64,000 nt of DNA from contig NZ_CAMFHB010000012.1 of assembly GCF_945952055.1 (NCBI RefSeq), positions 1 to 64,000 on the forward strand, given 5' to 3'. The stretch comes from an uncultured Alsobacter sp. Lineage in GTDB: Bacteria > Pseudomonadota > Alphaproteobacteria > Rhizobiales > Beijerinckiaceae. Position 1 is the first letter of the stretch, and each line of letters begins with the position of its first letter. Below the pieces are notes generated by a model. It made no database searches, was not told the origin of the DNA, and was given only the letters and a program-made list of their open reading frames with translations. The position numbers and the translations under genes are program-made. This document shows, piece after piece, positions 8,582 to 36,809 of the stretch.

Positions 8582-8629
8582 ACGGCGCGAATCCTGCAAG
8601 GCATCGCGGGAGCGTGATTGATTCCGCAT

Positions 8630-8647
8630 ATCGTATACTGTTACGAT
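8630..8647. promoter_or_regulatory. Inverted repeat overlapping a -10-like box
   Basis: ATCGTA and TACGAT face each other across 6 bases, and the repeat overlaps TATACT (8634-8639), a good -10 match. No convincing -35 box is seen 16-18 bases upstream. It lies 79 bases before the binding-protein start and may be an operator for a regulator encoded outside the window. Confidence 0.4.
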
Positions 8648-8725
8648 CCGGCACCTCCGGGGGAGCGGCCTGAAGGCCGTCGCCGGAGCGTCACAAAAGC
8701 GGGTCAGAGGGGAAGGGCCATAGCC

Positions 8726-12505: not shown

Positions 12506-13478
<973 letters not shown>

Positions 13479-14986: not shown

Positions 14987-15111
14987 GGGCATTCCTCGAT
15001 GGTTGTGACGATCGAGCCGGTCGCGGCCGGCAACGGACGATGAGCCTGCGCCCGGCACACGTCAACGCGGGCCGCCTCCATTGACGATCCCGTCGACTTG
15101 AGTCCACTATA

Positions 15112-15145
15112 CCATAATAAGGTTGCAAGTTCCACAATAATGGAA
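15112..15145. promoter_or_regulatory. Tandem operator-like sites upstream of second importer
   Basis: In a locally AT-rich stretch, TTCCA and TGGAA face each other across 6 bases (15130-15145). A related half-like sequence, CCATAATAAGG, begins 20 bases before the matching CCACAATAATGG. The TTCCA/TGGAA arms resemble operators of IclR-family regulators, and an IclR gene lies at the end of this operon (22396-23172). No well-spaced -35/-10 pair could be fixed. Confidence 0.45.
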
Positions 15146-15158
15146 TGAGGAGGGTCGC

Positions 15159-16703
15159 TTGAAGGTACTTCGTCGCACGCTTCTGGCCGGTACCGTCGCC
15201 CTGGCGGGCGTGGCCGCGCTGTCCACCGCTCCGGCCTGGGCCCAGGCCAAGGGTGGCGTCATCAACGTCGCCACCGTCGGCGAGCCGCCGACCCTCGACC
15301 CGATGGTCTCCACGGCCGACCTGGTCGGCATCATCACGCAGCATTTCTACGAGACGCTGTTCACCTTCGACAAGAACTGGAAGGTGACGCCGCTCCTCGC
15401 CGAGACGATGCCCGACATCTCGGCCGACGGAAAGGTCTACACGATCAAGTTGCGCCAGGGCGTGACCTTCCACGACGGCTCGACGATGACGTCGGCCGAC
15501 GTCGTGGCGTCCCTCAAGCGCTGGATGGACCTCGCCTCGCGCGGCAAGCAGGCTGCCGGCTTCATCGCCGGCGTCGAGGCCGTCGACGGCGCGACCGTGA
15601 AGCTGACGCTGAAGGAGCCCTATGCGCCGCTCCTCGCGCTGCTGGCCTTCAACAACGCGGCAGCCGTCATCATGCCTGCCGGCAAGATGGAGAACCCGCT
15701 CAAGGAGCCGGTCGGCACCGGGCCCTACAAGCTCAAGGAGCGCAAGGCGGACCAGTACATCCAGCTGGTGCGCCACGATGGCTACAAGTCCCGCGCCGGC
15801 GAGCCGGACGGCTATGGCGGCGCCCGCAAGCAGCTCCTCGACGAGATCCGCTTCGTGCCGGTCCCGGACCCGAACACCCGCGTCGAGGGCGCCATCTCCG
15901 GCCAGTACGACTATGTCGACGCGCTGCCGGTCGAGGCCTTCCCGCGCCTGCAGAACCAGAAGGCCACGCAGCCCGTGATGCTGAAGCCCTTCGGCTGGCC
16001 GGTGTTCGTGATGAACACCAAGCAGGGCATCATGTCGAACCTCGACGCGCGCCTCGCGGTCCGCACCGCGCTGAGCGAGGAGGACATGCTGACGGCCGCC
16101 TTCGGCTCGAAGGACTTCTTCGCGCTGAACGCCGCCTACTTCCCCAAGGGCTACGTCTGGAACACGGACGCCGGCACCGAGGGCGCCTACAACATCGCCG
16201 ATCCGGAGAAGGCCAAGGGCCTTCTCAAGAAGGCCGGCTCCGAGGGCAAGCCGCTGCGCATCCTCACGAGCCGCCAGTACGAGTTCCACTACAAGATGGC
16301 GCAGGTCGCCGCCGAGTACCTGAAGCAGGCGGGTTTCGCGGTCGAGCTGATGGTCGTGGACTGGGCGACGCTGACCCAGCGCCGCACCGACCCGGCGCTC
16401 TGGGACATCTACATCACCCACAGCCCCTTCCTGCCCGAGCCCGCGCTCACCGGCATCCTGTCGGAAGCCTCGCCCGGCTGGTGGTCGACGCCGGGCCGCA
16501 AGAAGGCCGTGGATGCCTTCAACTCCGAGCCCGATCCGTCAAAGCGCCCGGCGCTGTGGGCGGAGGTCCAGAAGGTCATCTACGCCGAAGTCCCGGCCAT
16601 CAAGATCGGTGACTTCAACGCGCTCTCGGCCCAGGCGCCGAAGGTGACGGGCGTGGACCCGGCCCCCTGGCCCTACTTCTGGAACGCCTCGGTTTCGAAG
16701 TGA
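15159..16703 (+). CDS. ABC peptide-type substrate-binding protein (SBP family 5)
   Basis: A 514-residue periplasmic binding protein with a Sec signal peptide cut after AQA near residue 29, followed by GEPPTLDPM, YETLFTF, LRQGVTFHDG and GTGPYKL motifs of the DppA/OppA family. The start is a TTG at 15159 with GAGGAGGG 4-6 bases upstream; no ATG or GTG fits better. It heads an operon running to 22390. The permeases follow after a 172-base gap holding a palindromic repeat. An amidohydrolase and a RidA protein in the operon suggest an acylated amino acid or amino-sugar-like substrate. Confidence 0.9.
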   Translation: MKVLRRTLLAGTVALAGVAALSTAPAWAQAKGGVINVATVGEPPTLDPMVSTADLVGIITQHFYETLFTFDKNWKVTPLLAETMPDISADGKVYTIKLRQGVTFHDGSTMTSADVVASLKRWMDLASRGKQAAGFIAGVEAVDGATVKLTLKEPYAPLLALLAFNNAAAVIMPAGKMENPLKEPVGTGPYKLKERKADQYIQLVRHDGYKSRAGEPDGYGGARKQLLDEIRFVPVPDPNTRVEGAISGQYDYVDALPVEAFPRLQNQKATQPVMLKPFGWPVFVMNTKQGIMSNLDARLAVRTALSEEDMLTAAFGSKDFFALNAAYFPKGYVWNTDAGTEGAYNIADPEKAKGLLKKAGSEGKPLRILTSRQYEFHYKMAQVAAEYLKQAGFAVELMVVDWATLTQRRTDPALWDIYITHSPFLPEPALTGILSEASPGWWSTPGRKKAVDAFNSEPDPSKRPALWAEVQKVIYAEVPAIKIGDFNALSAQAPKVTGVDPAPWPYFWNASVSK

Positions 16704-20907: not shown

Positions 20908-21935
20908 GCGCCGCTCCAAAGAGTGCTCCGGCCGACGTCCTGCTCTCGGTGCAGGGCCTGACCAAGACCTTCGACGTCCGTGGCGGCCTCGTCCGCGCGG
21001 TCGACGACGTCAGCTTCGACGTCCGGCGCGGCACCATCGTCGGGCTCGTCGGGGAATCTGGATCCGGCAAGACCACGATCGGCCGCACTGTGCTGCGCCT
21101 CGTCGAGCCCTCGGGCGGCAAGATCGTCTATGACGGCGTCGACATCGCGGCGCTGCCCGAAGGCGCCATGCGCGCCTACCGGCGGCGCATGCAGATCGTC
21201 TTCCAGGATCCCTATTCGAGCCTCAACCCGCGCATGCGGATCGAGGACATCATCGGCGAGGCGATCGACACGCACGGCCTCGCGCGCGGATCGGCGCGGC
21301 GCGATCGCATCGCCGACCTGCTCGCGCGGGTGGGACTGGCGCCCGAGCACGCGCGGCGCTTCCCGCACGAGTTCTCCGGCGGGCAGCGCCAACGCATCGG
21401 CATCGCCCGGGCGCTGGCCGTCGAGCCGGAGTTCATCGTCGCCGACGAGCCCGTCTCCGCCCTCGACGTGTCGGTGCAGGCGCAGGTCCTCAACCTCATC
21501 CAGGACCTGCAGCAGGCCTTCGGTCTGACGCTGCTCTTCATCGCCCACGACCTCTCGGTCGTCGAGTATCTCTGTGACGAGGTGGTGGTGCTCTATCTCG
21601 GTCGGGTTATGGAGCGCGGCCCCAGTCGGCAGGTCTATGCCGCCCCGCGCCATCCCTACACGCAGGCGCTGCTCTCGGCCGCGCCCGTGCCGGACCCGCG
21701 CGCGCCGCGCAACCGCGTGGTTCTGCAGGGCGACATCCCGAGCCCGATCAACCCGCCGTCCGGCTGCGTCTTCCGCACCCGCTGCCCGTCGGCCGCCGCC
21801 GCCTGTGCCGAGGTCGTGCCGCCGCTCGATGGCGTCGGCCCGAGCCACGCGGTCGCCTGCATCCGCAAGGACGAGCCCGACGTGCTCGCCCGCATCCACC
21901 CCGCCGCCGGCGGGCCCACACGGAGTTCGCCATGA
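20904..21935 (+). CDS. ABC importer ATPase, DppF-type
   Basis: A 343-residue ATPase with Walker A GESGSGKT (residues 50-57), FSGGQRQR signature, [10 protein letters not shown] and a C-terminal oligo_HPY region with [10 protein letters not shown]. It overlaps both neighbours by 4 bases and forms the motor heterodimer with the preceding gene. Confidence 0.92.
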
Positions 21936-22390
21936 CCACGCCTTACGACCGGCTCAAGGCCCTCGGGATCGTGCTGCCCACGCCGCCGACCCCGATCGCC
22001 AATTTCGTCACCCATGTGGAGGCCTCGGGCCTGCTGTTCCTCTCGGGCCAGGGGCCGCGCGAGGCGGACGGGCGCATGCACACCGGCAAGGTCGGCGGCG
22101 GCGTCTCGGTCGAGGAGGCCTACCAGCACGCCCGTGTCACCGGCATCAACCTGCTGGCCGTGATGCACGCGGCGCTCGGCGACCTCGGCCGCGTGAAGCG
22201 CGTCGTGAAGCTGCTCGGCATGGTCAACGCCACGCCGGAGTTCGGCGATCACCCCAAGGTCATCAACGGCTGTTCGGACCTGATGGTCGAGGTGTTCGGC
22301 GATGCCGGCCGGCATGCCCGCTCGGCGGTCGGCTTCGGCTCGCTCCCCGGCCAGATCACCGTCGAGATCGAGGCCGTGGTCGCGATCTGA
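21932..22390 (+). CDS. RidA/YjgF-family protein
   Basis: A 152-residue protein of the RidA superfamily, in the longer YjgH/Rid-like size class. It has the LFLSGQGPRE strand, a GRVKRVVKLLGMVN helix-strand and the R-SAVGFGSLPG loop that supplies the substrate Arg in hydrolytic members. RidA hydrolyses reactive enamines and imines released by PLP enzymes. It is coupled (ATGA) to the end of the importer operon, and a SelA-like PLP enzyme is divergent nearby. This supports a pathway with an ammonia-eliminating step. Confidence 0.88.
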   Translation: MTTPYDRLKALGIVLPTPPTPIANFVTHVEASGLLFLSGQGPREADGRMHTGKVGGGVSVEEAYQHARVTGINLLAVMHAALGDLGRVKRVVKLLGMVNATPEFGDHPKVINGCSDLMVEVFGDAGRHARSAVGFGSLPGQITVEIEAVVAI

Positions 22391-22395
22391 TGGAC

Positions 22396-23172
22396 CTACT
22401 GCCAGCCCAGCTGAGCCTCGATGCGCGCCGCGGCCTCCTGGACCGCGGCGACGTAGCCGTCGCGGTTCTCGCGGACCTTGTGCTCCGGCAGAACGATCGA
22501 GATCGTCGCCGTGCAGGCACCGGCGCTGTCGCGAATGGGCGAGGCGATGCAGGCGACCGAGAAGTCGGACTCGCTCATCTGGATGCAGAGCCTGTCGGCC
22601 AGGGCTTCGCGGCTCTGCTCGGCGAGGATGGCGGGATCCGTCTCCGCCCGGCCGGTCGGCGACAGTTTCACCGAGCGGCGATAGAGGCCGACGAGTTCGT
22701 CTTGCGGGCGATGCCCGACGAGCAAACGGCCCGAGGCCGTCCAGTTGAGGGGCACACGGGTGCCGACCCGCGACGTCACGCGGAAATGGCCTGGGCCGTC
22801 CGCCATCGCCAAGACGATCATGTGGTCGTCGTCGAGGCCGCAGATCTGCACCGTCTCGCCGACGGCGCGGCAGAGGTCGTGCATCTCGTGCGTGGCGACG
22901 TCGAGGACGTCGAGCGACTGCGCGTAGGCGAGGCCATAGTGGTAGAGCCGGGCACCGAGCCACACCGTGCCGTCGGACCGGCGCTGCAGCATGCGCTTGT
23001 CCACGAGGTCGTCGATGATGCTGTAGACGGTCGAGAGCGGCGCGCCGACGGCCTTGGCGATGGCATAGGCGGAGGCGGGCTTTCCCTCCTCGCGCAGCAC
23101 GTCGAGGACCTGCAGGGCGCGGTCGATGCCGCTGACGCGGGTGCGGCGGCCGTCCTTCACGCTCGCATCCAT
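22396..23172 (-). CDS. IclR-family transcriptional regulator
   Basis: A 258-residue regulator with an N-terminal winged helix-turn-helix (about residues 15-75, with [22 protein letters not shown] as turn and recognition helix) and a C-terminal IclR effector domain ([15 protein letters not shown]). It converges on the importer operon, ending 6 bases from the RidA stop, and is divergent from the SelA-like gene. The ATG at 23172 has AAGGA 9 bases upstream; an in-frame TTG at 23181 directly abuts that site and is rejected. It probably controls both the SelA-like gene and the operon starting at 15159. Confidence 0.92.
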
Positions 23173-23214
23173 CGCCCGCAATCCTTCTTCCGCAATTGCA
23201 AAAGCTCATCCCTT

Positions 23215-23246
23215 GGGGCGGAATATACCCGAGGGGTTTCCACCCC
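23215..23246. promoter_or_regulatory. Inverted repeat in the IclR/SelA-like divergent gap
   Basis: GGGGCGGAA (23215-23223) and TTCCACCCC (23238-23246) form a near-perfect inverted repeat with 9-base arms and a 14-base spacer, just upstream of the SelA-like gene. The inner GGAA/TTCC bases recall IclR-family sites. It is a candidate binding site for the adjacent IclR protein. Confidence 0.45.
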
Positions 23247-23261
23247 GCAAAGGACATGACC

Positions 23262-24458
23262 ATGGCCACCGACATCCGCGCCAAGCTCGGGCTGCGTCCC
23301 GTCATCAACGTCTCGGGCACGATGACCTTCCTGGGGGCGTCGATCGTGCCGCCGTCCGTCGTCGAGGCGGTCGCCGCCGTTCTTCCGCAGTTCGTCGAGA
23401 TCGACCATCTGCAGAAGCTCGCCAGCAAGACCATCGCGCGGCTCTGCGGGGCGGAGGCGGGCTTCGTCACCGCCTCCTGCTCGGCCGGCATCAGCGTCGC
23501 CGTGGCGGGCGCCATGACGGGCACGGATCTCCTGGCCATCGAGCGGCTGCCGGACACGACGGGCCTCAAGAACGAGGTCCTGATCATGACGGGGCACATG
23601 GTGTCCTACGGCGCCCCGGTGGCGCAGGGCATCGCGCTCACCGGCGCCAAGGTCGTGCCGGTCGGCCAGTCCACGCAGGCCCGCCGCTACCAGCTCGAAA
23701 GCTCGATCACGCCGCAGACCGCGGCGGCCGTCTACGTCGTCTCGCACCACGCCGTGCAGTACGGCATGATCCCGCTCGACGAGTTCTGCGAGATCTGCCA
23801 CGCGCACGGCGTGCCGGTGATCGTCGACGCCGCGTCCGAGTACGACCTGAAGGGCTTCATCGCCCAGGGCGCGGACCTCGCGCTCTACTCCTCGCACAAG
23901 TTCCTCGGCGGCCCCACGGGCGGCATCGTCGCCGGCCGCAAGGACCTGGTGCGCGCCGCCTACCTGCAGAATGGCGGCATCGGCCGCGGCATGAAGGTCG
24001 GCAAGGAAGGCATGGTCGGCACCATCGCTGCGCTCGAGGCCTGGGAGACGCGCGACCACGAAGGCATCCGCAAGCTGGAGACCTCCTACCTCGAGCTCTG
24101 GACCCGCACGCTCGCCGACCGTGCCGGCATCCGCGCCGAGTGGGAGGCCGATCCGACCCACAATCCCCTCGACCGGCTCAAGGTGCACGTCGACCCCGTG
24201 GGCGCCCACATCACCGCCTGGGACCTCGCCAGCGCGCTGGCCAGCGGCCCCCGGCCGGTGATCGTGCGTGATCACGAGATCGAGCACGGCTTCTTCTACA
24301 TGGACCCCTGCAACCTCCACCCCGGCGAGGCCGAGGTCGTCGCCGCCCGCCTCGTCGAGGAACTCGACAAGGCCGCGCGCTCCAACGAGGTCATCGCCAC
24401 CCCGCTCGAACGCCGCCGCAACAAGCGCGCGGAGGCTGCGCAGACCTGGCCGGATTGA
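23262..24458 (+). CDS. SelA-like PLP-dependent enzyme (DgaE/ammonia-lyase type)
   Basis: A 398-residue fold-type-I PLP enzyme related to selenocysteine synthase SelA. The PLP lysine is K213 ([12 protein letters not shown]) and the ring-binding Asp is D189 (VIVDAAS). Close relatives act on non-tRNA substrates, for example D-glucosaminate-6-phosphate ammonia-lyase (DgaE), eliminating ammonia or water to give 2-keto-3-deoxy acids. AAAGGA lies 7 bases before the ATG at 23262; an ATG 6 bases earlier is also possible. The context of deacetylase-like amidohydrolase, RidA and importer supports breakdown of an amino acid or amino-sugar-acid derivative. Confidence 0.85.
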
Positions 24459-25568: not shown

Positions 25569-26729
25569 TCAATACGCCGGCTTCATCGGGAACCAACCTC
25601 GCCGCGCCGGGTCCAGGTAGGCCCCCTCGATCCGGGCGACGGCATACTTCTCCACCAGAGCCTCGTCGGGCGTGACGCCCAATCCGGGAGCCTTCGGCAC
25701 GTCGAAGGCGCCGTCGCGCAGGACGGGCGTGTCGGGGGCGATGTCGTCGGCGAGGTAGGTGCGCTCGGTGTCGATGGCGAGGTGCATGTTGGGGATCGAG
25801 GCGGCGAGGTGGACGTAGGCGGCCTGTGACAGGGCGAGTTCGCCGCCCGAATGCAGGGTCACCGGGATGCCGACGGATTCGCATACGCCGGCCTGCTTGA
25901 TCACGGGCCAGACGCCGCCTGCCTCGTGCGGGTCGAGCAGGACCACGTCGGCCGCGCCCATGCGCACGATGTTGCCGACGTCGGCGAGCGTGTAGGCGCT
26001 CTCGTCGAGCGCGATCGGCACCGGGAGAACCTGGCGCAGCTCGGCATGACCCTGGAGGTCGTCGAGTTCGAGCGGCTGCTCGACATAGGCGAGGTCGAAG
26101 CCGGCGAGGCGGGCCAGCTGCCGGCGCGCCGTGCCTGGTGTCCAGGCGCCGTTCACGTCGGCGCGCAGGTCCCGGTCGCCGACGACCTTGCGCACGGCTT
26201 CCACGAGAGTGATGTCGCTCTCGCGGTCGACGCCGATCTTCACCTTGAACGTCGAGAAGCCGAGGTCGAGGAAGCGGCGGGCGTCCTCGGCGACGCGCTT
26301 GGGATCGTTGACGAAGAGGTAGGCCGACGCCGGCGTGCGGTCCCGCCACAGGCCGCCCCACAGGGCGTGCAGCGGCGCGCCGAGACGCTTGCCGAGCGCG
26401 TCCCACATGGCCATCTCGACGGCGGCCAGCGCCATCACGGCGGCGCGCTTGTGGTGGTAGTAGCCGGCACCGAAGACGTTGCGGTGGAAGCGCTCCACGT
26501 CGGCGACGTCGTAGCCGATGGCCAGCGGAGCCACGATCTCGCGCAGGACGGCCGGGACGTTGTCGATCAGGGCGATCGTCTCGCCCCAGCCGGTCACGCC
26601 CGCGTCCGTCTCCAGGCGCACGATCATGCGCGTCGCGCCGGACCGGCGGCCGGAGCCCCACAGGATGTCCTCGCGAAAGGGCATGCGGACGAGCCAATGG
26701 TCGACGCGGGTGATGCGGGCTCCAGACAC
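25569..26729 (-). CDS. Enolase-superfamily enzyme, mandelate-racemase subgroup
   Basis: A 386-residue enolase-superfamily protein with an N-terminal capping domain and a C-terminal barrel. K162/K164 form the KxK base, and the magnesium ligands are D191, E217 and D242. The D266-H293 pair sits at the spacing of the mandelate-racemase Asp-His dyad. This supports racemase or acid-sugar dehydratase chemistry rather than muconate lactonisation. The GTG start at 26729 has GGAGG 7-8 bases upstream. It is divergent from the IclR-lactonase fusion, and may serve the same sugar-acid pathway from the other side of that promoter region. Confidence 0.85.
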   Translation of the reverse strand: MSGARITRVDHWLVRMPFREDILWGSGRRSGATRMIVRLETDAGVTGWGETIALIDNVPAVLREIVAPLAIGYDVADVERFHRNVFGAGYYHHKRAAVMALAAVEMAMWDALGKRLGAPLHALWGGLWRDRTPASAYLFVNDPKRVAEDARRFLDLGFSTFKVKIGVDRESDITLVEAVRKVVGDRDLRADVNGAWTPGTARRQLARLAGFDLAYVEQPLELDDLQGHAELRQVLPVPIALDESAYTLADVGNIVRMGAADVVLLDPHEAGGVWPVIKQAGVCESVGIPVTLHSGGELALSQAAYVHLAASIPNMHLAIDTERTYLADDIAPDTPVLRDGAFDVPKAPGLGVTPDEALVEKYAVARIEGAYLDPARRGWFPMKPAY

Positions 26730-26835
26730 GACGTTCCTCCAGTTTCACGATGCGGAACTGTGGTCCGCATTCGACGATGTCTTGGCGAGCCTCGTTCCGG
26801 TAAGCGGCCGCCTGGATGTGCCAGACGGTGTCGGA

Positions 26836-26888
26836 TTGACAGGAACGCAATCTCGCGACTAACGTGGAACATAAGTCCAAAATATGGA
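26836..26888 (+). promoter_or_regulatory. Promoter and IclR-like operator of the fusion gene
   Basis: TTGACA (26836-26841) and TAACGT (26860-26865) are separated by 18 bases and form a plausible sigma-70 promoter. Just downstream lie three alternating half sites: TGGA (26865), TCCA (26876) and TGGA (26885). The last two form the palindrome TCCA-N5-TGGA. Such TGGA/TCCA sites are typical of IclR-family operators and would suit autoregulation by the protein encoded next. Confidence 0.55.
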
Positions 26889-26900
26889 AACGCCAAGCCC

Positions 26901-28628
26901 GTGCGCCTCAAGGTCCTTCCCACCGCCGACCAGACGGATGCGACCGACTCGCCCCGCGAGGTGCCGGGCGCGCAGGCGCTTCGTCGCGGACTTGCCCTCC
27001 TGGACATCGTGGCCGACAGCGCCCGGCCGTTGCGCTTCACCGAAATCGCCGACCGGTCGGGGCTCGCTCGCCCGACCGCGCACCGCATGCTCGCCACCCT
27101 CGTGGAGGCGGGCCTGCTGCGGGTCGACGATCGCGACCAGACCTACCGGCTCGGGCTGCGCCTGTTCGAGATGGCGCACCGCGTGTGGGATGACTTCGAC
27201 CTGCGCAGCGCCGCCGAGCCCGAACTCGAGCGCCTGCGCGACCTGACCGGGGAGGCTGTCCGCCTCGCCGTGCTCGACGGGCGCGACGTGCTCACCGTGG
27301 ACCAGCGCGAGAGCCAGCAGCCGGTCCGCCTCGGCAACGGCGTCGGCGCGCGTTCGGCCGCGCACGCCTCGGGTGCCGGCAAGGCCATTCTCGCCCATCT
27401 CGATCCGCTCGAGCTGCGCCAGCGCTGGGCTGGCAACGACCTTCCCCGCTTCACGCCGAATACCATCGTCTCGGCGGACGAACTCTTCTCCGAGCTGACG
27501 CTGGCGAAGGGCCGTGGCTACGCCGTCTCGATGGAAGAGCAGCACCCGGGAGTCGCCTCCGTGGCCGCTCCCATCCTCGACCATCGCGCCCGGGCCATCG
27601 GCGCCATCGCCGTCGTCGGCCCCTCCTTCCGCCTCGGGCCGGACCGTCTCCACGCGCTCGGCCGCGACGTGATGGAGGCCGCCCGCCGCATTTCCGGGAA
27701 CGCCGGCCAGATTGCCATGTCCATCACCATCGCCCCCCGCCCCCTCGGCCCCGACCGCGAGGACGTCCGCGTCGTCTTTCCGTCGTCCTGCTTCCTCGGG
27801 GAGGGGCCGTACTGGTCGGCCGCCGATGGCCGCCTCACCTGGGTCGACATCCTGGCGCCGGCCATCCTCACCGGCGATCCCGCCACCGGGACCTTCACGT
27901 CGCATCCGATGCCCGAGCTCGTCAGCGCGGTGATCCCCCGCCGACGCGGCGGCTGGGTGGCCGCCATGCAGAGCGGCATCAAGGCCGTCGACCTGGACAG
28001 CCGCAGCGTCGTGGCGCTCGCCTCCCCGGAGGCCGACAAGCCGGGCAACCGTTTCAACGACGCCAAGTGCGACCGCCGCGGCCGTCTCTTCGCCGGAACC
28101 CTCGCCATCGACACGACGCCGGGCGAAGGGTCGCTGTGGCGGCTCGATCCCGACGGCCGCGTGACTGCCATGGACCGCGGCTTCCAGGTCTCGAACGGCC
28201 TTGGCTGGTCGCCCGACAACCGGCTCTTCTACTTCACCGACAGCGCGGCCCGGACGATCTGGGTCTACGACTACGACATCGAGACCGGCTCCATCGCCAA
28301 CCGGCGGCCGTTCGTCGTCCTTCCGGAAGGGCAGGGGACGCCCGACGGGCTCGCGGTGGATGCCGAGGGCTTCGTGTGGAGCGCGCATTGGGACGGCTGG
28401 TGCGTGAGCCGCTACGCGCCCGACGGCAGCGTCGAGCGCGTCATCAACATGCCCGTGCCGCGGCCGACCAGCTGCGTGTTCGGCGGGCCCGACATGTCGA
28501 CCCTCTACGTGACGTCGGCCCGCATCCGTCTGTCGGCGCACCAGCTCGCCGAGGCGCCCCTGTCCGGCGCCGTCTTCGCCATCGACGCCCGCGTCCGCGG
28601 GCTCCCCGACACCCCCTTCGCCGGTTGA
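26901..28628 (+). CDS. IclR regulator fused to SMP-30/gluconolactonase domain
   Basis: A 575-residue two-part protein in one uninterrupted frame. Residues 24-86 are an IclR winged helix-turn-helix ([18 protein letters not shown]), 87-270 an IclR effector domain, and 285-575 a six-bladed SMP-30/gluconolactonase propeller. The propeller keeps the expected metal ligands: E301 (LGEGPYW), N386 (RFNDAKC), N432 (SNGLGWS) and D482 (TPDGLAVD). It should both bind DNA and open sugar lactones. The GTG at 26901 is the best start in frame, with only a weak GGAAA upstream. It heads a sugar-acid import and catabolism operon. A sequencing error fusing two genes is possible but no stop or ribosome site is seen at the join. 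Confidence 0.85.
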
Positions 28629-28639
28629 GGAGACCCGCC

Positions 28640-29731
28640 ATGGCCACACTCACCCTGCGCGGCGTGAAGAAGACCTTCGACAAGACCCATGTGCTGCACG
28701 GCATCGACCTGGACGTGCCCGACGGCGCCTTCGTCGTCTTCGTCGGCCCGTCTGGCTGCGGCAAGTCCACCCTACTGCGGCTGATCTGCGGGCTCGACGA
28801 GGTATCCGCCGGCACCATCGCCATCGACGGCGAGAAGGTGAACGACGTGCCGCCCGCGCGTCGCGGCATCGCCATGGTGTTCCAGAGCTACGCGCTCTAC
28901 CCGCACATGACGGTCGCCCAGAACATGGGCTACGCGCTGCGCCTCGCCGGCACGCCCGCCGGCGAGATCGAAACGCGGGTGAAGGCCGCCGCCGGCGTGC
29001 TGCGCCTCGATGCGCTGCTGCAGCGCAAGCCCAGGCAGCTCTCCGGCGGGCAGCGCCAGCGTGTCGCCATCGGCCGGGCCATCGTGCGCGAGCCGCGCAT
29101 CTTCCTCTTCGACGAGCCCCTGTCCAACCTCGACGCCGCGCTGCGCGTCGACATGCGTGGCGAGATCGCGCGGCTGAAGGCGCGGCTCGGCACCACCATG
29201 GTCTATGTCACGCATGACCAGACCGAGGCCATGACGCTCGCCGACATGATCGTGGTCATGAACGGCGGTCGCGTGGAGCAGGTGGGATCGCCGCTGGACC
29301 TTTACCGGCGCCCCGCCAACCGCTTCGTCGCCGGCTTCATCGGCTCTCCGCGCATGAACATGCTGCCCGCCACCGTCGCCGAGAACGGCACGGTCGTGCT
29401 GCCGGGGAGTGTGCGCTCGGCGGTCGGCATCGCCGCGCGCCCCGGCGAGCGCGCCGAGATCGGCATCCGGGCCGAGCACCTCGTGCTGGGCGACCCCAGC
29501 GCCGGCGTGATCACCGGTGCTGTCACCATGGTCGAGCACCTGGGTGCCGACGTCTTCGCGTCCGTCGCGGTCGAGGGCGTGGATGCTCCGGTGATCGTGC
29601 GCCTCGACGGCGACAGCGTGGTCCGGCCCGGCCTTCCCGTCGGCCTGACCTTCGATCCCGCCCGGGCCCATCCCTTCGATACGCAGGGGCTTCGCGCCGA
29701 TGGCGCAGACGCCGTCAGGAGTGCCGCATGA
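28640..29731 (+). CDS. ABC importer ATPase, UgpC/MalK-type
   Basis: A 363-residue carbohydrate-importer ATPase with Walker [10 protein letters not shown] (residues 36-44), LSGGQRQR signature, [10 protein letters not shown]-loop [10 protein letters not shown] and a C-terminal MalK-type OB-fold (TOBE) domain from about residue 240. It follows the fusion gene by 11 bases and has GAGGAG as ribosome site. It pairs with the permeases at 32015-33797. Proteins of this type often energise several sugar importers, so it might also serve the ATPase-less importer at 48-51 kb. Confidence 0.92.
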
Positions 29732-30495
29732 CCGCCCGCTATCCCGACCTCGACGGGTTGCCCGTCCTCATCACCGGCGGTGGCTCCGGCATCGGCGCCT
29801 CGATCGTCGAGCATTTCGCCGCGCAGGGCGCGCGGGTCGGGGCCATCGAGGTGAACGCGGCCACGGCCGAGCGCACCCGTGCGGCGGTCCGCGAAGCCAC
29901 GGGCCGCGACGTCGCCTTTGCCGTCGTGGATCTGCGCGACATTGCAGCCACCCGCGAGGCGGTGGCCGAACTCGCCGCGAAGACCGGCCCGTTCCGCGTC
30001 CTCGTCAACAATGCCGGCGACGACGAGCGGCACGCCTGGGACACGATGACCCCCGAGCTCTGGGACGACCGCTTCGCGGTCAACCTGCGCCACCAGTTCT
30101 TCGTCGCCCAGGCCGTCGCGCCCGGCATGATCGCGGCCGGTGGCGGTTCGATCATCAACCTGAACTCGATCTCGTGGATGTTCGGGGCGGCGACCGTCAT
30201 CGCCTACACGACGGCCAAGTCGGCCGTGTCCGGCCTGACGAAGTCGCTGGCCCGTGAACTCGGGATCCACAAGATCCGGGTCAACGGCATCGCGCCGGGC
30301 TGGGTTCTGACGGAGAAGCAGGTCAACCGCGCCAACGCGGCCGACCCGTCCAAGTTCAAGGCCTATCTCGACCGCCAGTGCCTCAAGGAGCACCTCGCCC
30401 CGGCCGACATCGCCCGCATGGCGCTGTGGCTGGCCAGCGAGGAGTCCCGCCTGTGTACGGGCCAGACCTTCATCGTCGATGGAGGGGTCGTCTGA
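29728..30495 (+). CDS. SDR-family dehydrogenase
   Basis: A 255-residue short-chain dehydrogenase with the NAD(P) motif TGGGSGIG (residues 16-23), NNAG (94-97), catalytic Ser near 147, Y160 and K164 (YTTAK), and the IAPGWVLT segment. An acidic E41 at the end of strand 2 points to NAD. It overlaps the ATPase gene by 4 bases. In this operon it most likely oxidises the imported sugar to a lactone or a sugar acid to a keto acid. Confidence 0.9.
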
Positions 30496-30579: not shown

Positions 30580-31863
30580 ATGGCAAAGATTTCACGGCGC
30601 ACGTTCGGCGCCCTCGGGCTGGGGGCAGCCACGGCCGCGCTCTCTGGCCGCGGCGCCTTCGCCCAGAGCGGCGGCGCCAGCTTCATGAGCTTCACCTTTG
30701 CGGAGGAGCCCAACAAGCCGTTCATCGACAAGTTGATCGCCGACTTCAAGGCGTCCAGCGGCATCGCCGTCGAGCCGATCGGCACGGCCTGGGGCGACGC
30801 GCAGAAGAACATCGTGCTGCGCCAGCGCTCCAAGACGCTGCCCGACACCGCGCAGCTGCAGGACCGCTGGGTCCCGGCCATGGCGACCCTGCCCGAGATC
30901 GTCGACCTCACCCCGGTGCTCGGCGCCGCCACGCTCGGCGCCATCGATCCGGGCGCGAGCTCGCTCGGCAAGGTCGACGGCAAGCAGGTCGCGATTCCGC
31001 TGATCTCCGGTTCCGTCGGCTTCGTCGCCAACAAGGAAGTGCTCGCCAAGGCCGGCGTCGAGAAGCTGCCGGTGACGCTGGACGAGTTCCGCGCCGCGCT
31101 GGTCGCCGTGCGCGACAAGGTGCCGAACTCGGTGCCCTACACCATGGCCACCAAGAACCCCGGCGCCGTGCCGCTCGACGCGCTGCTGATCTTCTGGGCC
31201 CACAACGCCCGCATGATCGACGAGAGCGGCAAGGTGCTGGTCAACAGCCCCGAGGGGCGCGCCGCCATGGCCTTCATGGCCGGCCTGATGAAGGACCGCC
31301 TGATCGCCCCCGAGTTCGACCGTCCGGACTCGCGCCGGCTCTTCGGCCAGGGTGGCTCGGCCTTCTACGTCGACGCGCCGCAGGCCCGCACCTTCGCCCG
31401 CAACTTCTCCGGTCGCGGCGAGGCGATGGACGTCAACGTCATCCCCATGAAGACGCCGATCCTGAAGGCCGGCGACACGCCGAAGTCGGTCGAGTGGGGC
31501 CACACGGTCGCGATGTTCAAGAACGCCAACGCCATCGGCCCGGACACGCCCGCCTCCAAGTGGATGAAGTACCTGCTCTCCGACGCCGTGCAGACGACGC
31601 TCCCGCTGGCGTTGGGCGGCCTGCCGGTGACGACGGCCGGGCGCAACGCACCGGTCGTCGCCAACGACGCCTACCTCAAGGCCTGGGGCGCCACGGTGGT
31701 GCAGGCCATGAAGCACGAGGTTGGCGTGTGGTCGAACGGCCCCGAGCTGTCCTCGATCCTCACGGAAGAGATCCAGGCCTGCATCCTCGGCCAGAAGACC
31801 GCCGACGCCGCCACCGCCTCCATGCAGACCCGCATGGAAGCCTCCATGGCCAAGCGCGGCTAA
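30580..31863 (+). CDS. ABC carbohydrate-type substrate-binding protein (SBP family 1)
   Basis: A 427-residue periplasmic binding protein. The N-terminus has a twin-arginine motif (SRRTFGALG) before a hydrophobic stretch ending in AFA-Q, so Tat export is likely. The body has SBP-1 features (LPDTAQLQDRW, PLISGSVGFVANKEVL, DAPQARTF). A good AGGAG ribosome site precedes the ATG. It sits between the SDR and the permeases, and a repeat copy separates it from the first permease. The ligand is presumably the sugar or sugar acid consumed by the surrounding enzymes. Confidence 0.9.
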   Translation: MAKISRRTFGALGLGAATAALSGRGAFAQSGGASFMSFTFAEEPNKPFIDKLIADFKASSGIAVEPIGTAWGDAQKNIVLRQRSKTLPDTAQLQDRWVPAMATLPEIVDLTPVLGAATLGAIDPGASSLGKVDGKQVAIPLISGSVGFVANKEVLAKAGVEKLPVTLDEFRAALVAVRDKVPNSVPYTMATKNPGAVPLDALLIFWAHNARMIDESGKVLVNSPEGRAAMAFMAGLMKDRLIAPEFDRPDSRRLFGQGGSAFYVDAPQARTFARNFSGRGEAMDVNVIPMKTPILKAGDTPKSVEWGHTVAMFKNANAIGPDTPASKWMKYLLSDAVQTTLPLALGGLPVTTAGRNAPVVANDAYLKAWGATVVQAMKHEVGVWSNGPELSSILTEEIQACILGQKTADAATASMQTRMEASMAKRG

Positions 31864-32014: not shown

Positions 32015-32959
32015 ATGGCAGTCCATGACATGAGTGCCTCCACCGCACAGACCACCTTCCCCGTCTCGGCGCTCGCGCGCCGGGGCGGGCTGAAGGCCGG
32101 CGAACGGCGCATCGGCTGGCTGTTCCTGCTGCCGGCCGTCGCCGCCTTCGTGCTGGTCATCGCGGTCCCGTTCCTGCGGGCGCTGGGCTACGCCTTCACG
32201 CGCTATGACCTGCAGACCCCCGAGCCCGTGTTCATCGGGCTCGGGAATTTCCGGGCGCTCGCGGCCTCGCCGGAGGTGCTCGGATCCTTTGTCACGACCC
32301 TCCTCTACGTCGTGCTGGCCACCGGGTTCACGGTCATTCTCGGACTCGCCTGGGCGATCGTGCTCAACCAGACCTTCCGCGGGCGCGCGGCGCTGCGCGC
32401 CATGTCGCTCCTGCCCTGGGTGCTGCCCTCCACGGTCTGCGCCTTCGTCTGGGGCTGGATCTTCAACAGCCGCTTCGGCCTGCTCAACGCGGTGCTGCTC
32501 GACCTCGGGCTGATCCCGTTCCCGACGGCGTGGCTCTCGACCACCTCCGGCGCCATGAGCGCCATCGTCGTTACCAAGGTCTGGCTGTCGATCCCGCTCT
32601 ACATGTCGTTCTTCCTCGCTGGCCTGCAGGGCCTCGACCGCGAGCAGATCGACGCCGCTCGAGTCGACGGCGCCGGCAACCTCGCCATCCTGCGCGACCA
32701 CGTGCTGCCGCACCTGCGGCCGGTGCTTCTGGTCGTTGTCGTGCTCGGCGTCATCGGCAACCTGCAGCAGTTCGACACCATCTTCGCGCTCACCGGCGGC
32801 GGGCCCGTGCGGGCCACCACGGTGCTCTCCATCGAGGTCTACCGGCGTGCCTTCGACCAGTGGGACGTCGGCATGGCCGCGGCCATCGGACTCCTGTGGG
32901 TCGCGACGATCCTGCCGGCGGCCTACCTCTATCTCCGTCACCTCCTGAAGGGCGTGTGA
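32015..32959 (+). CDS. ABC importer permease, MalF/UgpA-type
   Basis: A 314-residue membrane subunit with six hydrophobic helices and an EAA loop (IDAARVDGAGNLAILRDHVLPHL) near residues 210-235. The start at 32015 has GCAGGA 4 bases upstream; the ATG at 32030 is an alternative. It is followed one base after its stop codon by the second permease. Confidence 0.9.
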   Translation: MAVHDMSASTAQTTFPVSALARRGGLKAGERRIGWLFLLPAVAAFVLVIAVPFLRALGYAFTRYDLQTPEPVFIGLGNFRALAASPEVLGSFVTTLLYVVLATGFTVILGLAWAIVLNQTFRGRAALRAMSLLPWVLPSTVCAFVWGWIFNSRFGLLNAVLLDLGLIPFPTAWLSTTSGAMSAIVVTKVWLSIPLYMSFFLAGLQGLDREQIDAARVDGAGNLAILRDHVLPHLRPVLLVVVVLGVIGNLQQFDTIFALTGGGPVRATTVLSIEVYRRAFDQWDVGMAAAIGLLWVATILPAAYLYLRHLLKGV

Positions 32960-32960
32960 G

Positions 32961-33797
32961 ATGCTCGACCTCTCCGCCCCGCTCGCGCGCGGCATCTTCC
33001 TCCTCGTGCTGGCCGTGATCGGGCTCTTCCTGTTCTTCCCGATCTACTGGCTCGCGATCTCGGCGCTGAAGGGCAACGCCGAGCTCTACCGCATCGACCC
33101 GACCTTCTATCCGCACGCGCTGTCGTGGGAGCACTTCGCGACCGCCTTCGGCCGCGGCAAGCTCTTGCTGCACCTGCAGAACAGCCTCGTGGTGTCGGGT
33201 TCGGCGGCGGCGCTCAACACCGCGCTCGCCATGTATGCCGGCTACTCCTTCGCCAAGTTCCGCTTCGCCGGGCGCCGCCCGGTGATGCTGATGCTGCTCT
33301 CGGCGCAGGTGTTCCCCTTCGGCCTGCTGCTCATCAGCCTCTACCCGATCATGTCGTCGCTGGGCCTGCTCGACACCCGGCCGGGGCTCGTCATCGCCTC
33401 GATCGTCTTCGCGCTGCCGGTGTCGACCTACATGCTCTACAGCTACTTCAGCCAGGTGCCGGACGAGCTCATCGAGGCGGCGCGCGCCGACGGCGCGGGC
33501 GAGCTGCGCATCTTCCACACCATCGTCCTGCCGGTCTCCATCCCTGCGCTCGTGACCGTGTTCCTCTACGGCTTCATGTGGTCGTGGAACGACCTCCTCT
33601 ACGCGATGACGCTCATCGTGTCCGAGGACAAGCGCACGGTCGGTCCGGGCCTGCTGCTCAGCTACCTCAACGAGACGAACGCGGACTGGGGCGGGGCCAT
33701 GGCGGCCTCCCTCGTGGCCTCGCTGCCCGTCGTCGTCGCCTTCGCCATCCTTCAGCGCTGGTTCATCCAGGGCGTCACTGCCGGAGCCGTGAAATGA
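32961..33797 (+). CDS. ABC importer permease, MalG/UgpE-type
   Basis: A 278-residue partner permease of typical length with about six helices, a FFPIYWLAISALKG first segment and an EAA loop (IEAARADGAGELRIFHTIVLPVS) near residues 172-195. Its stop overlaps the start of the following DapA-family gene (ATGA), tying transport to catabolism. Confidence 0.92.
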   Translation: MLDLSAPLARGIFLLVLAVIGLFLFFPIYWLAISALKGNAELYRIDPTFYPHALSWEHFATAFGRGKLLLHLQNSLVVSGSAAALNTALAMYAGYSFAKFRFAGRRPVMLMLLSAQVFPFGLLLISLYPIMSSLGLLDTRPGLVIASIVFALPVSTYMLYSYFSQVPDELIEAARADGAGELRIFHTIVLPVSIPALVTVFLYGFMWSWNDLLYAMTLIVSEDKRTVGPGLLLSYLNETNADWGGAMAASLVASLPVVVAFAILQRWFIQGVTAGAVK

Positions 33798-34705
33798 CCA
33801 CTCTGTCGGGCGTGCTGCCCGTCGTCCCCACGCCCTTCACGCCGGACGGCGCGGTGGACCAAGCCGCCTTCCTGCGCCTCGTCGACTTCGCCCTCGAGGC
33901 CGGCGTCGACGGCCTCGTCTTCCCAGGCATGGCGAGCGAGGTCGAGACGCTGACGCCGGAGGAGCGGGCCGGCCTCGTGGCCGCGCTCGGCCAGCGCGTG
34001 GCGGGGCGCGTCCCGATCGTGGTCGGCGCCAGCGACCCCGATCCCGAGCGCGCCGCCGCGCGCGCCGAGGAAGGGCGCCGTGCGGGCGCCGTCGCGGCGA
34101 TGATCATGGCGCCGAACCGGCTCGGTGCGGACGTCGCCGCACACATCGACTTCTACAGCCGCGTGGCCGCGGCGACGTCGCTGCCGATCATGCTCCAGAA
34201 CGCACCGGCGCCGATGGGGGCAGGGCTCTCCGACAGCGCCGTGGTGGCGGTGGCCAAGGCCGTCCCCCAGGTCCGCTTCGTGAAGGAAGAGACGCTGCCC
34301 TGCGGCCAGCACATCAGCGCCATGATCGCCGAGGCGGGCGATGCGCTCGACGCCGTCTACGGCGGGGCCGGCGCCCGCTACGTCATCGACGAGTTCGAGC
34401 GCGGCGCGGCCGGCACCATGCCGGCGCTGGAGTTCGCCGACGTGCACGTCGCCATGGCCCGCGCCTTCAAGGCGGGGGACAAGGCCACCGCCCGTCGGCT
34501 CTATTCGCGCACGCTGCCCTTCCTGCTGTTCCAGGCGATCTTCCGGGTGCGCGCCACCAAGCGCGTGCTGGCCGCCCGCGGCCTGCTCTCCTCCGTCCAC
34601 GCCCGTGCGGGCGGCCCGGGGCTCGATCGCCACGACGAGCAGGAGGTCGCGGCGCTGATCGCCGAGGCCGCCGATCTCTTCGCCATCCATCCGGTCAGGA
34701 CCTGA
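33794..34705 (+). CDS. DapA-family lyase (2-keto-3-deoxy-acid aldolase/dehydratase type)
   Basis: A 303-residue class-I aldolase-fold protein. The Schiff-base lysine is K164 (FVKEET). At the position of the catalytic Tyr of E. coli DapA (YNVP) this protein has Q135 (LQNAP), so it is not a true dihydrodipicolinate synthase. Family members with sugar-acid context cleave or dehydrate 2-keto-3-deoxy sugar acids. It overlaps the MalG-type permease gene and precedes the enolase-superfamily gene by 4 bases. Confidence 0.85.
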   Translation: MTTLSGVLPVVPTPFTPDGAVDQAAFLRLVDFALEAGVDGLVFPGMASEVETLTPEERAGLVAALGQRVAGRVPIVVGASDPDPERAAARAEEGRRAGAVAAMIMAPNRLGADVAAHIDFYSRVAAATSLPIMLQNAPAPMGAGLSDSAVVAVAKAVPQVRFVKEETLPCGQHISAMIAEAGDALDAVYGGAGARYVIDEFERGAAGTMPALEFADVHVAMARAFKAGDKATARRLYSRTLPFLLFQAIFRVRATKRVLAARGLLSSVHARAGGPGLDRHDEQEVAALIAEAADLFAIHPVRT

Positions 34706-34709
34706 CACC

Positions 34710-35879
34710 ATGCCGCTCGACGCCATCACGAAGGTCGAGACCTTCATCGTCTCCATCCCGCGCGACATGCCCTATCTTGGGCCGCTGCGGGAAGGCGAGC
34801 GCATCAACGAGCGCGGCTACCTGATCCGCAAGGGCAACCGCTCGATCTATCCCGCGACCGACATGTCGGTGCTGGTGAAGATCACCGCGGAGAGTGGCGC
34901 GGTCGGCTGGGGCGAGACCTACGGCATCGTCGCGCCGAACGCCGTGAAGTCGATCATCGACGACGTGCTGGGCCCGGTGATCATCGGCCGTGACCCTGGC
35001 GATCCGGTCGTGATCCACGAGGACCTCTACGACCTCATGCGCGTGCGCGGCTTCTTCGGCGGCTACTACGTCGACAGCCTCGCCGGCGTCGATATCGCCA
35101 TCTGGGACCTGCTGGGGCGCATCACCAACCGGTCGCTGGCCAGCCTCGTCGGCGGCCAGCGCCATGCGAGCCTGCCGGCCTATGTGTCGGGCCTGCCCAA
35201 GGCGACGCTGCAGGAGCGGTGCGACCTCGCGGTCGAGTGGGTGGGCAAGGGCTACAAGGCGGTGAAGTTCGCCGCCGCGATGTCGGACGACGGCATCGTC
35301 AAGGAAATGGCGGCGTTGCGCGAGGCGGTGGGGCCTGGAATCCACCTGATGGTCGACCTGCACTGGAAGTTCACGGCGCCGGAAGCCATCCGCATCATCC
35401 GCAAGCTCGAGCCCTACGACCTCTACTTCGCAGAGGCGCCCTGCGAGCCGGAAGACATCGACGGACAGGCGGCGGTCGCCGCCGGCATCGGCACGCCTCT
35501 CGCGCTGGGCGAGGAATGGCGCACGGTGTTCGAGTATCGCCCGCGCTTCCAGCGCCAGTGCATGGGCGTGATCCAGCCGGAGATGGGCCACACCGGCGTC
35601 ACCGAGTTCATGGGCATCGGCCGCATGGCCCATGCCTTCCACGTCGACACCATACCGCATGCCTCGATCGGCATCGGCGTCTTCATGGCGGCGAGCCTGC
35701 ATGCGACGGCGGCGCTGAAGCGCGTGCCCTACCACGAGTATCAGCACTCGATCTTCGACAAGAACCTGCGCTACGTGACCGGCGACATGGACTGCAAGGC
35801 GGGGTTCTACACGATCCCGTCCGGCGCGGGCCACGGCGTCGTGCCGCACGACAGCGTGTTCAACCACGTGGTGGGCTGA
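34710..35879 (+). CDS. Enolase-superfamily sugar-acid dehydratase-like enzyme
   Basis: A 389-residue enolase-superfamily protein. The barrel has a lysine at K186 (KAVKF), metal ligands D216 (MVDLHW), E242 (FAEAP) and E268 (ALGEEW), and a general acid/base H317 (IPHASIG), here with E291 where the usual dyad Asp would be. The second lysine of the KxK motif seems to be absent. That points to a dehydratase whose base is the His, as in galactonate-type dehydratases. It lies between the two DapA-family genes and would make the 2-keto-3-deoxy acid they use. Confidence 0.83.
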   Translation: MPLDAITKVETFIVSIPRDMPYLGPLREGERINERGYLIRKGNRSIYPATDMSVLVKITAESGAVGWGETYGIVAPNAVKSIIDDVLGPVIIGRDPGDPVVIHEDLYDLMRVRGFFGGYYVDSLAGVDIAIWDLLGRITNRSLASLVGGQRHASLPAYVSGLPKATLQERCDLAVEWVGKGYKAVKFAAAMSDDGIVKEMAALREAVGPGIHLMVDLHWKFTAPEAIRIIRKLEPYDLYFAEAPCEPEDIDGQAAVAAGIGTPLALGEEWRTVFEYRPRFQRQCMGVIQPEMGHTGVTEFMGIGRMAHAFHVDTIPHASIGIGVFMAASLHATAALKRVPYHEYQHSIFDKNLRYVTGDMDCKAGFYTIPSGAGHGVVPHDSVFNHVVG

Positions 35880-35882
35880 GCC

Positions 35883-36809
35883 ATGGCCGGTCGACGCTTC
35901 GAAGGCATCTATCCGGTCCTCTACGCCTTCTTCGACGGCGAGGGCCGGCTCGACCGGCACGCCATGGCGCTGCAGGTGGAGCACTGCATTGCCGCCGGCG
36001 CCCACGGCATCATGGTGCTGGGCCTCGTCACCGAGGTGCACAAGCAGACGACGGCCGAGCGCCTGCACCTCGTGGAGATGGTCGGTGGGCTCATCGCCGG
36101 ACGGGTGCCCTATGCTGTGACGATCGGCGAGCCGACGCCGGATGCGCAGGTGGATTTCGCCCGCGCCGCCAAGGCCGCCGGGGCCGACTGGGTGATCCTG
36201 CAGCCTCCTCCCGGCAAGGGCCATACGGACGCCGACCTGCAGCGCCATTTCGGCGGCATCGCCGATCGGCTCGACATGCCGGCGGCGATCCAGAACAACC
36301 CGGTCAACCTCGACAGCTCGCTGTCGCCGGACGGACTGACCGCCCTGCTGCGCGCCCACCCCACCATCTCGCTCCTCAAGGCCGAGGGCTGGTCCGTGGA
36401 CATCGCCCGCGTCATCGAGAGCCTCGGCGGCGCGGTGCAAGCCTTCGGCGGCCATGGCGGCCTCGAATTCCCCAGCCTGATGCGCAGCGGCGGTGCGGGC
36501 CTCATTCCGGCGCCCGACTGCGTGGCGCTGCAGGTCGCCATGTTCGAGGCCTACACATCCGGCGATCCCGCCCGCATCGCGCAAGCCGACGCCATCCACC
36601 AGCGCATCCTGCCGCTGATCGTCTTCATGACCCGCTCCATCCCGGGCCTGCTGTGCTACGGAAAGCGCCTGATGGCGCGACGGCTGGGCCTGCCCGAGCC
36701 GCACGACCGCGCCCCGGCCATCGCGCCCACCGCCTTCGGCCTCGCCGAAATGGACCGCGTGTTCGCCGACGTGCTGGCGGCGGAGCGGGAGTTCCTGTCC
36801 CGGGGCTGA
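35883..36809 (+). CDS. Second DapA-family lyase
   Basis: A 308-residue DapA-fold protein with Schiff-base lysine K166 (LLKAEGW) and, again, Gln (Q137, AIQNNP) in place of the catalytic Tyr of DapA. It is clearly different from the DapA-like gene 1.2 kb upstream and not a recent duplicate. The two may act on successive intermediates or on different stereoisomers. It starts 3 bases after the enolase stop and ends 20 bases from the convergent phosphodiesterase gene. Confidence 0.83.
   Translation: MAGRRFEGIYPVLYAFFDGEGRLDRHAMALQVEHCIAAGAHGIMVLGLVTEVHKQTTAERLHLVEMVGGLIAGRVPYAVTIGEPTPDAQVDFARAAKAAGADWVILQPPPGKGHTDADLQRHFGGIADRLDMPAAIQNNPVNLDSSLSPDGLTALLRAHPTISLLKAEGWSVDIARVIESLGGAVQAFGGHGGLEFPSLMRSGGAGLIPAPDCVALQVAMFEAYTSGDPARIAQADAIHQRILPLIVFMTRSIPGLLCYGKRLMARRLGLPEPHDRAPAIAPTAFGLAEMDRVFADVLAAEREFLSRG

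Follow-up and report, generated by a model that had tools for sequence, protein, structure and literature searches.

An IclR regulator fused to an SMP-30/gluconolactonase propeller at the head of a sugar-acid operon in an uncultured Alsobacter: a probable trigger enzyme

Proteins that both catalyse a step of a pathway and repress that pathway are few, and PutA and BirA are the textbook cases, with DNA-binding and enzyme folds other than IclR and the SMP-30/gluconolactonase propeller (SGL). Regulators such as GabR/MocR and ROK are built on non-catalytic enzyme folds, and in the blcABC/BlcR system of Agrobacterium an IclR regulator and a lactonase of an unrelated fold are encoded in one operon by separate genes. 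Here, we describe a gene in a 64,000-nucleotide stretch of an uncultured Alsobacter sp. (contig NZ_CAMFHB010000012.1, positions 1 to 64,000; hereafter the window), in which an IclR regulator and an SGL lactonase are joined in one protein. PutA is a proline dehydrogenase that also represses its own genes, and BirA is a biotin enzyme-repressor (PMC6978683); the fusion would likewise combine a metabolic enzyme and a repressor of its own genes. Unlike PutA and BirA, it consists of an ordinary IclR regulator, complete with an effector domain, joined to a lactonase. Compared with IclR-family regulators such as BlcR (3mq0) and T. maritima IclR (1mkm), it shares the HTH_IclR and IclR_C domains but has about 290 extra residues which form an enzyme domain. 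With human SMP30 (3g4e) and Caulobacter xylonolactonase (7plb/7plc) it shares the six-bladed fold at 37-38% identity, whereas those solved chains are stand-alone and shorter than 300 residues. Like blcABC/BlcR it pairs an IclR regulator with a lactonase, but in a single gene and with the SGL fold. A literature search, whose coverage mostly excludes subscription papers and preprints so that absence is unproven, turned up no description of an IclR-SGL fusion, and the main text of a review of the IclR family (PMC8222616) contains none of the words 'gluconolactonase', 'SMP' and 'fused'. In another article, S. meliloti SMa0059 (a short-chain dehydrogenase/reductase, SDR) and SMa0060 (a gluconolactonase/regucalcin homolog) are listed as a pair (PMC12542648); SMa0060 and SMa0059 could be such a fusion and its SDR.

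The fusion gene occupies 26901-28628 on the forward strand, from a GTG start at 26901 to a stop at 28626-28628, and the original prediction of one continuous 575-codon frame was confirmed by frame reading and Pfam: the frame is free of stops, codons 275-285 included. It encodes an HTH_IclR DNA-binding domain (residues 26-76; 26976-27128; 3.4e-18, 65.6 bits, cut-off 22), an IclR_C effector/oligomerisation domain (residues 95-265; 27183-27695; 1.5e-41, 142.3 bits, cut-off 24), a linker (residues 266-288; 27696-27764) and an SGL six-bladed propeller (residues 299-541; 27795-28523; 5.2e-89, 298.5 bits) that covers positions 1-246 of the 246-position profile. Judged by domain content only, DNA-binding and enzyme parts are therefore present in one protein, as in a trigger enzyme. 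The named IclR equivalogs (BhcR, IclR, AllR and KdgR) did not reach their NCBIfam cut-offs, the top one being BhcR with 195.5 bits versus 350. All four metal-site residues of the SMP-30/gluconolactonase family (E, N, N, D) are present as predicted, since E18, N103, N154 and D204 of human SMP30 align with the metal ligand E301 (27801-27803), the metal/substrate-site residue N386 (28056-28058) and the metal ligands N432 (28194-28196) and D482 (28344-28346), and R101 aligns with R384. When an AlphaFold model (29 sequences; mean predicted local distance difference test, pLDDT, 83.3; predicted template-modelling score, pTM, 0.59) was searched against solved structures, its C-terminal half matched human SMP30 (3g4e) and Caulobacter xylonolactonase (7plb/7plc), and its N-terminal half matched BlcR (3mq0) and T. 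maritima IclR (1mkm). The VIA-align matches were mainly to the propeller, with IclR rows only at ranks 49 and 50.

The fusion is not restricted to this contig. In a scan of species genomes, the fusion was found in 25 of 41 loci (59-74% identity; three of them, L017, L029 and L030, cut by contig ends) and an SGL match alone in the other 16, and 17 of the 25 repeat the operon order described below; the fusion is therefore not an artefact. A frameshift or assembly error was rejected as a candidate, with the same unbroken frame occurring in orthologs from complete and draft genomes, and so was the presence of two separate genes in relatives, the sampled stand-alone SGLs falling outside the fusion group in the SGL tree. 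One of the 25, from the metagenome-assembled genome Rhizobiales bacterium 65-9 (L036:8001-9606), has its SGL half split over two frames with a shortened gap, which is either a real loss or an assembly error. Matches across both halves occurred in 9 of 59 relatives, in 13 of 297 genomes of the order (E<=1e-65) and in 3 of 398 of the phylum, the source genome being counted among the 9 and the 3; since only a few candidates were scored in each genome, the true numbers may be higher. Among plasmid records, 192 gave a match, which extends over 80% or more of the query in 132 of them; Sinorhizobium, Agrobacterium, Labrenzia, Roseibium and Marinovum are represented. The source genome holds six SGL domains, three of them within IclR fusions. 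Faunimonas pinastri (L025) carries two fusions about 5 kb apart (8001-9689, and 15007-16680 on the minus strand), 64% and 48% identical to the window protein and both with an intact metal site. RefSeq already holds fusion proteins under half-names; among the records inspected, most intact forms carry a lactonase name, and the one checked form with a broken metal site (Bradyrhizobium) is named an IclR regulator. The present annotation, by naming one half, hides the fusion.

As originally proposed, the fusion is the first gene of a sugar-acid operon. It is followed on the same strand by genes for an ATP-binding cassette (ABC) transporter ATPase (28640-29731), an SDR dehydrogenase (29728-30495; closest NCBIfam model D-xylose 1-dehydrogenase, 275.4 bits, cut-off 400), a solute-binding protein of the ABC transporter (30580-31863, Pfam), two ABC permeases (32015-32959 and 32961-33797), a dihydrodipicolinate synthase (DHDPS)-family enzyme (33794-34705; closest solved L-2-keto-3-deoxyarabonate dehydratase), an MR_MLE protein of the sugar-acid dehydratase family (34710-35879; closest solved 4h1z, 2ppg and 2nql) and a second DHDPS-family enzyme (35883-36809, Pfam). 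Another MR_MLE gene of that dehydratase family is divergent (25569-26729, minus strand, Pfam). Conservation of the IclR plus SGL order in homologous operons, the check first suggested, was borne out: in 17 of the 25 fusion loci the order is fusion, ABC ATPase, SDR, binding protein, two permeases and DHDPS-family gene, with an MR_MLE gene next in 16 of these 17, and a divergent MR_MLE gene occurs in 12 loci. Most of the remaining fusion loci are short or cut; L010 and L049 are without parts of the operon order, and in L025 the second fusion replaces the later operon genes. In Marinovum, the fusion precedes a gene named 3-oxoacyl-reductase.

A putative operator lies just upstream of the fusion gene. 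Ahead of many of the fusions there is a conserved palindrome, TGGAAC-N3-GTTCCA, which takes the form TGGAACATAAGTCCA at 26865-26879 in the window; its TGGA-N7-TCCA pattern resembles the E. coli IclR box. For comparisons across the family, 47 other fusions were aligned with the window protein, leaving out the window's own locus copy, the IclR-only L006-L008, the frame-split L036, pieces shorter than 400 residues and duplicate tails, and cutting eight frames of more than 620 residues to their last 620. The exact pattern is found upstream of the window gene and of 17 of these 47 (three of which have no usable upstream region), including the ligand-losing L095. When the window and 25 close orthologs were ranked with a motif built without the tested group and the whole locus was scored, the fusion promoter came out on top for the window and for 18 of the 25 orthologs (19 of 26), and the window operator was the top match across all 64 kb (score 16.8, runner-up 9.7). 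In shuffled controls, 0 to 2.5% of shuffles equalled the consensus match in 20 of the 26 upstream regions. Immediately ahead of the binding-protein gene there are second sites in L024, L031 and L027 (two), and L106 and L107 have them at that distance too. In Labrenzia L154, which is outside the motif set, the best three matches in 19.6 kb were at 8838, near the gene start at 8905, and at 12549 and 12605, near the binding-protein gene start at 12641. No second site was found before the binding-protein gene of the window by the motif scan. A weak, speculative palindrome, TGCGGAACTGTGGTCCGCA (26751-26769), stands beside the start of the divergent gene (motif score 8.0 versus 17.0) and is not among the best leave-one-out matches listed. 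The original prediction had placed TGGA/TCCA half sites just after the gene's own promoter: the half sites proved to be the conserved palindrome and a possible -35 box, TTGACA, is present (26836-26841, plus strand), but a consensus scan found no sigma-70 promoter. The position of the operator between TTGACA and the start codon suggests repression, which we infer in preference to activation.

Taken together, we propose, with a probability of roughly 0.65, that the fusion is a bifunctional autoregulated repressor which is also the lactonase of its operon, that is, a trigger enzyme. The IclR half would bind TGGAAC-N3-GTTCCA, a short way ahead of the start codon of its own gene, and keep the operon repressed; the SDR dehydrogenase of the operon would make a sugar lactone, presumably the substrate that the SGL half hydrolyses, and the resulting acid would go to the MR_MLE dehydratase. 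As the fusion is first in the window operon and under its own operator, the repressor would also set the dose of lactonase, and on induction the lactonase would rise together with the pathway. In its favour, none of the 36 intact-fusion loci has a second SGL gene in a count based on tblastn matches (6 of the 36 loci are shorter than 9 kb), and contig C12 gave no further SGL match at E<=1e-10, although no search covered lactonases of other folds. The inducer may be the lactone, the acid or a later product. Destruction of the inducer by the lactonase half, as first imagined, is one of several options; either a ligand of the propeller could change DNA binding, or turnover could merely lower the inducer.

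Several observations weigh against this proposal. The promoter site is not the best of its locus in 7 of 26 cases (L104, L011, L013, L015, L016, L018 and L049), and six of these upstream regions (all except L049) are no better than shuffles (11 to 64%). L016 and L018, which fail both operator tests, are the nearest IclR relatives of the window protein by path. An oxidoreductase gene lies directly upstream of the fusion in L010, L036, L049 and L104, so the fusion need not come first, and in Agrobacterium tumefaciens 15955 the fusion is in mid-operon, immediately before an SDR gene, and the motif scan found no clear operator. Lactones can open spontaneously, and a lactonase may thus be dispensable. 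Finally, ligand-less paralogs show that an intact catalytic site is not required for the propeller, and the fusion, to be kept.

These paralogs include a point missed by the original prediction: the source genome has two more IclR-SGL fusions, both with the ligands lost. One (L086:8034-9677, contig C5) is 37% and the other (L087:8701-10260, minus strand, contig C2) is 33% identical to the window protein. Across the alignment, the four ligands are intact in 36 of the 47 other fusions and at least one is lost in 11: all four in L086, L087, L090, L091, L096 and L102, three in L092, two in L093, L094 and L095, and only D482 in L101. The Bradyrhizobium guangdongense fusion has also lost all four, its SGL profile matching in the last third only, and the fusions of Agrobacterium, Labrenzia, S. 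medicae and Marinovum keep them all. Stand-alone SGLs of 36-51% identity keep all four in 34 of 34 cases (35 rows were aligned, one, 15% identical over 210 columns, being uncounted), although this sample leans towards intact sites because it was chosen as the best matches to the window protein. Five fusions, L086 and L087 among them, form a clade: of the 53 positions that are invariant among intact fusions (L029 left out), 14 are lost in all five members, the four ligands among them, and 24 are kept in at least four members, mostly Gly, Pro, Trp and Asp. Between two genomes with both kinds of fusion, the intact partners are 73% (IclR) and 71% (SGL) identical, and the metal-site-less ones 69% and 45%; a second genome pair gives a weaker contrast (75% and 69% versus 54% and 41%). 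The propeller thus changes faster after ligand loss, yet the frame remains open. A separate SGL with all four ligands is nearby in 2 of the 11 ligand-losing loci (L091 and L102) and not in the other nine, and in the five such loci whose neighbours were scanned (L086, L087, L091, L095 and L102) there are genes for sugar-acid dehydratases, SDRs and ABC transporters of the peptide or sugar type.

That the propeller was kept after the metal site was lost argues for a regulatory role in such paralogs, and perhaps, by extension, in the window protein as well. Fusions with lost ligands (L086, L087, L090-L096, L102 and Bradyrhizobium L161) resemble GabR/MocR and ROK, whereas the window protein keeps an intact site and the family holds both states. 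The window propeller might accordingly be a ligand sensor too, its metal site binding a lactone or acid as a signal with no need of turnover, as in enzyme-fold regulators. The 11 ligand-losing fusions, two of them in the source genome, and the many scaffold residues kept by the five-member clade speak for such a sensor, but the window clade, at 59-74% identity, retains the four ligands and R384, and tblastn revealed no other SGL gene in the loci; we regard a sensor role as unlikely for this protein.

Another alternative is that two independent functions were joined for co-expression or channelling, with no allosteric coupling. The IclR and propeller parts of the model are mostly confident, with low confidence at residues 1-19, 93-99 and 267-277; the last of these, in the linker, together with the pTM of 0.59, means that no fixed domain arrangement is predicted, as loosely joined halves would lead one to expect. 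On the other hand, the linker is strongly conserved across the ortholog clade (consensus RRISGNxGxxAMSIxxNPRPLGxDRxDV), the fusion halves group together in both the IclR and SGL trees, and even fusions that lost the metal site have kept the propeller; we consider two uncoupled functions improbable. The linker also holds Met273 (27717-27719), at the start of the lactonase half, which is kept in all 28 other rows of the window clade and, among 19 fusions outside it, only in L097. Predicted Shine-Dalgarno pairing before this codon (29 genes, L097 left out) has a median of -6.4 kcal/mol versus -2.9 at 210 other in-frame ATGs and reaches about -9.6 in Microvirga; the strong pairing in several orthologs, the window excepted, hints at an internal start. 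Such a start would additionally yield free lactonase, giving the fusion and a separate enzyme from one gene. The conservation of Met273 and the stronger median pairing favour this, but the window site is weak (-1.7, with 78% of codons having an equally strong site), Met273 is mostly missing outside the window clade, and encoded Gly-Glu/Gln by itself produces purine-rich codons, so that we consider an internal start very improbable.

Returning to the proposed repressor-lactonase, its operon would fit a pathway that starts with transport and oxidation to a lactone, continues with hydrolysis and ends with dehydration and cleavage. As to the sugar of the pathway, the nearest models and structures of the SDR are D-xylose 1-dehydrogenase, sulfoquinovose 1-dehydrogenase and unnamed SDRs, and the first DHDPS-family enzyme resembles L-2-keto-3-deoxyarabonate dehydratase. 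Apart from Agrobacterium, 13 loci from 12 distinct genomes have a relative of 2-keto-3-deoxygalactonokinase close by, and none was matched in the 64-kb window. For one pathway partner a crystal structure is available, since the MR_MLE protein of the Agrobacterium fusion operon (L153:2585-3751) is almost the same as the 'isomerase/lactonizing enzyme' solved as 2nql and 4dn1. Elsewhere in the window, a third MR_MLE-like stretch (62971-63978, minus strand) near the end is 25% identical to the Agrobacterium enzyme, and a second, unfused IclR gene (22396-23181, minus strand) lies between genes for a RidA-like protein (21932-22390) and a SelA-like pyridoxal phosphate enzyme (23196-24458).

The history of the family was approached with quick trees, which have SH-like approximate likelihood ratio test (SH-aLRT) support only and long branches. 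In the IclR tree, one branch (SH-aLRT 93) separates 47 fusion halves, the window included, from 23 stand-alone IclRs, and in the SGL tree a branch with support of 86 separates 48 fusion halves from 35 others, human SMP30 among them. A single fusion event is the simplest reading of these trees, with their speed and long branches as a caution. The ligand state changed at least three times on either tree when gains and losses are counted alike; on the SGL tree, the fusions with broken sites form four groups (L095 with the clade of five, L092 with L102, L093 with L094, and L101), which means four losses if loss is irreversible. One can picture, at slightly less than even odds, a single fusion event in the Proteobacteria after which the metal site was lost in several lines and the propeller kept, the former active site becoming a second sugar-ligand pocket which governs the IclR half, so that a working trigger enzyme and derived regulators would belong to one family.

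In conclusion, a common regulator family has been joined to a common lactonase family and the fusion has been kept in many Alphaproteobacteria, with ligand-keeping and ligand-losing forms side by side. The passage of an enzyme into a sensor may be preserved in this family. If this is true, the presence of both kinds in the source genome allows the enzyme-to-sensor step to be dissected by comparison, and these natural variants would make the transition from enzyme to transcriptional sensor testable.
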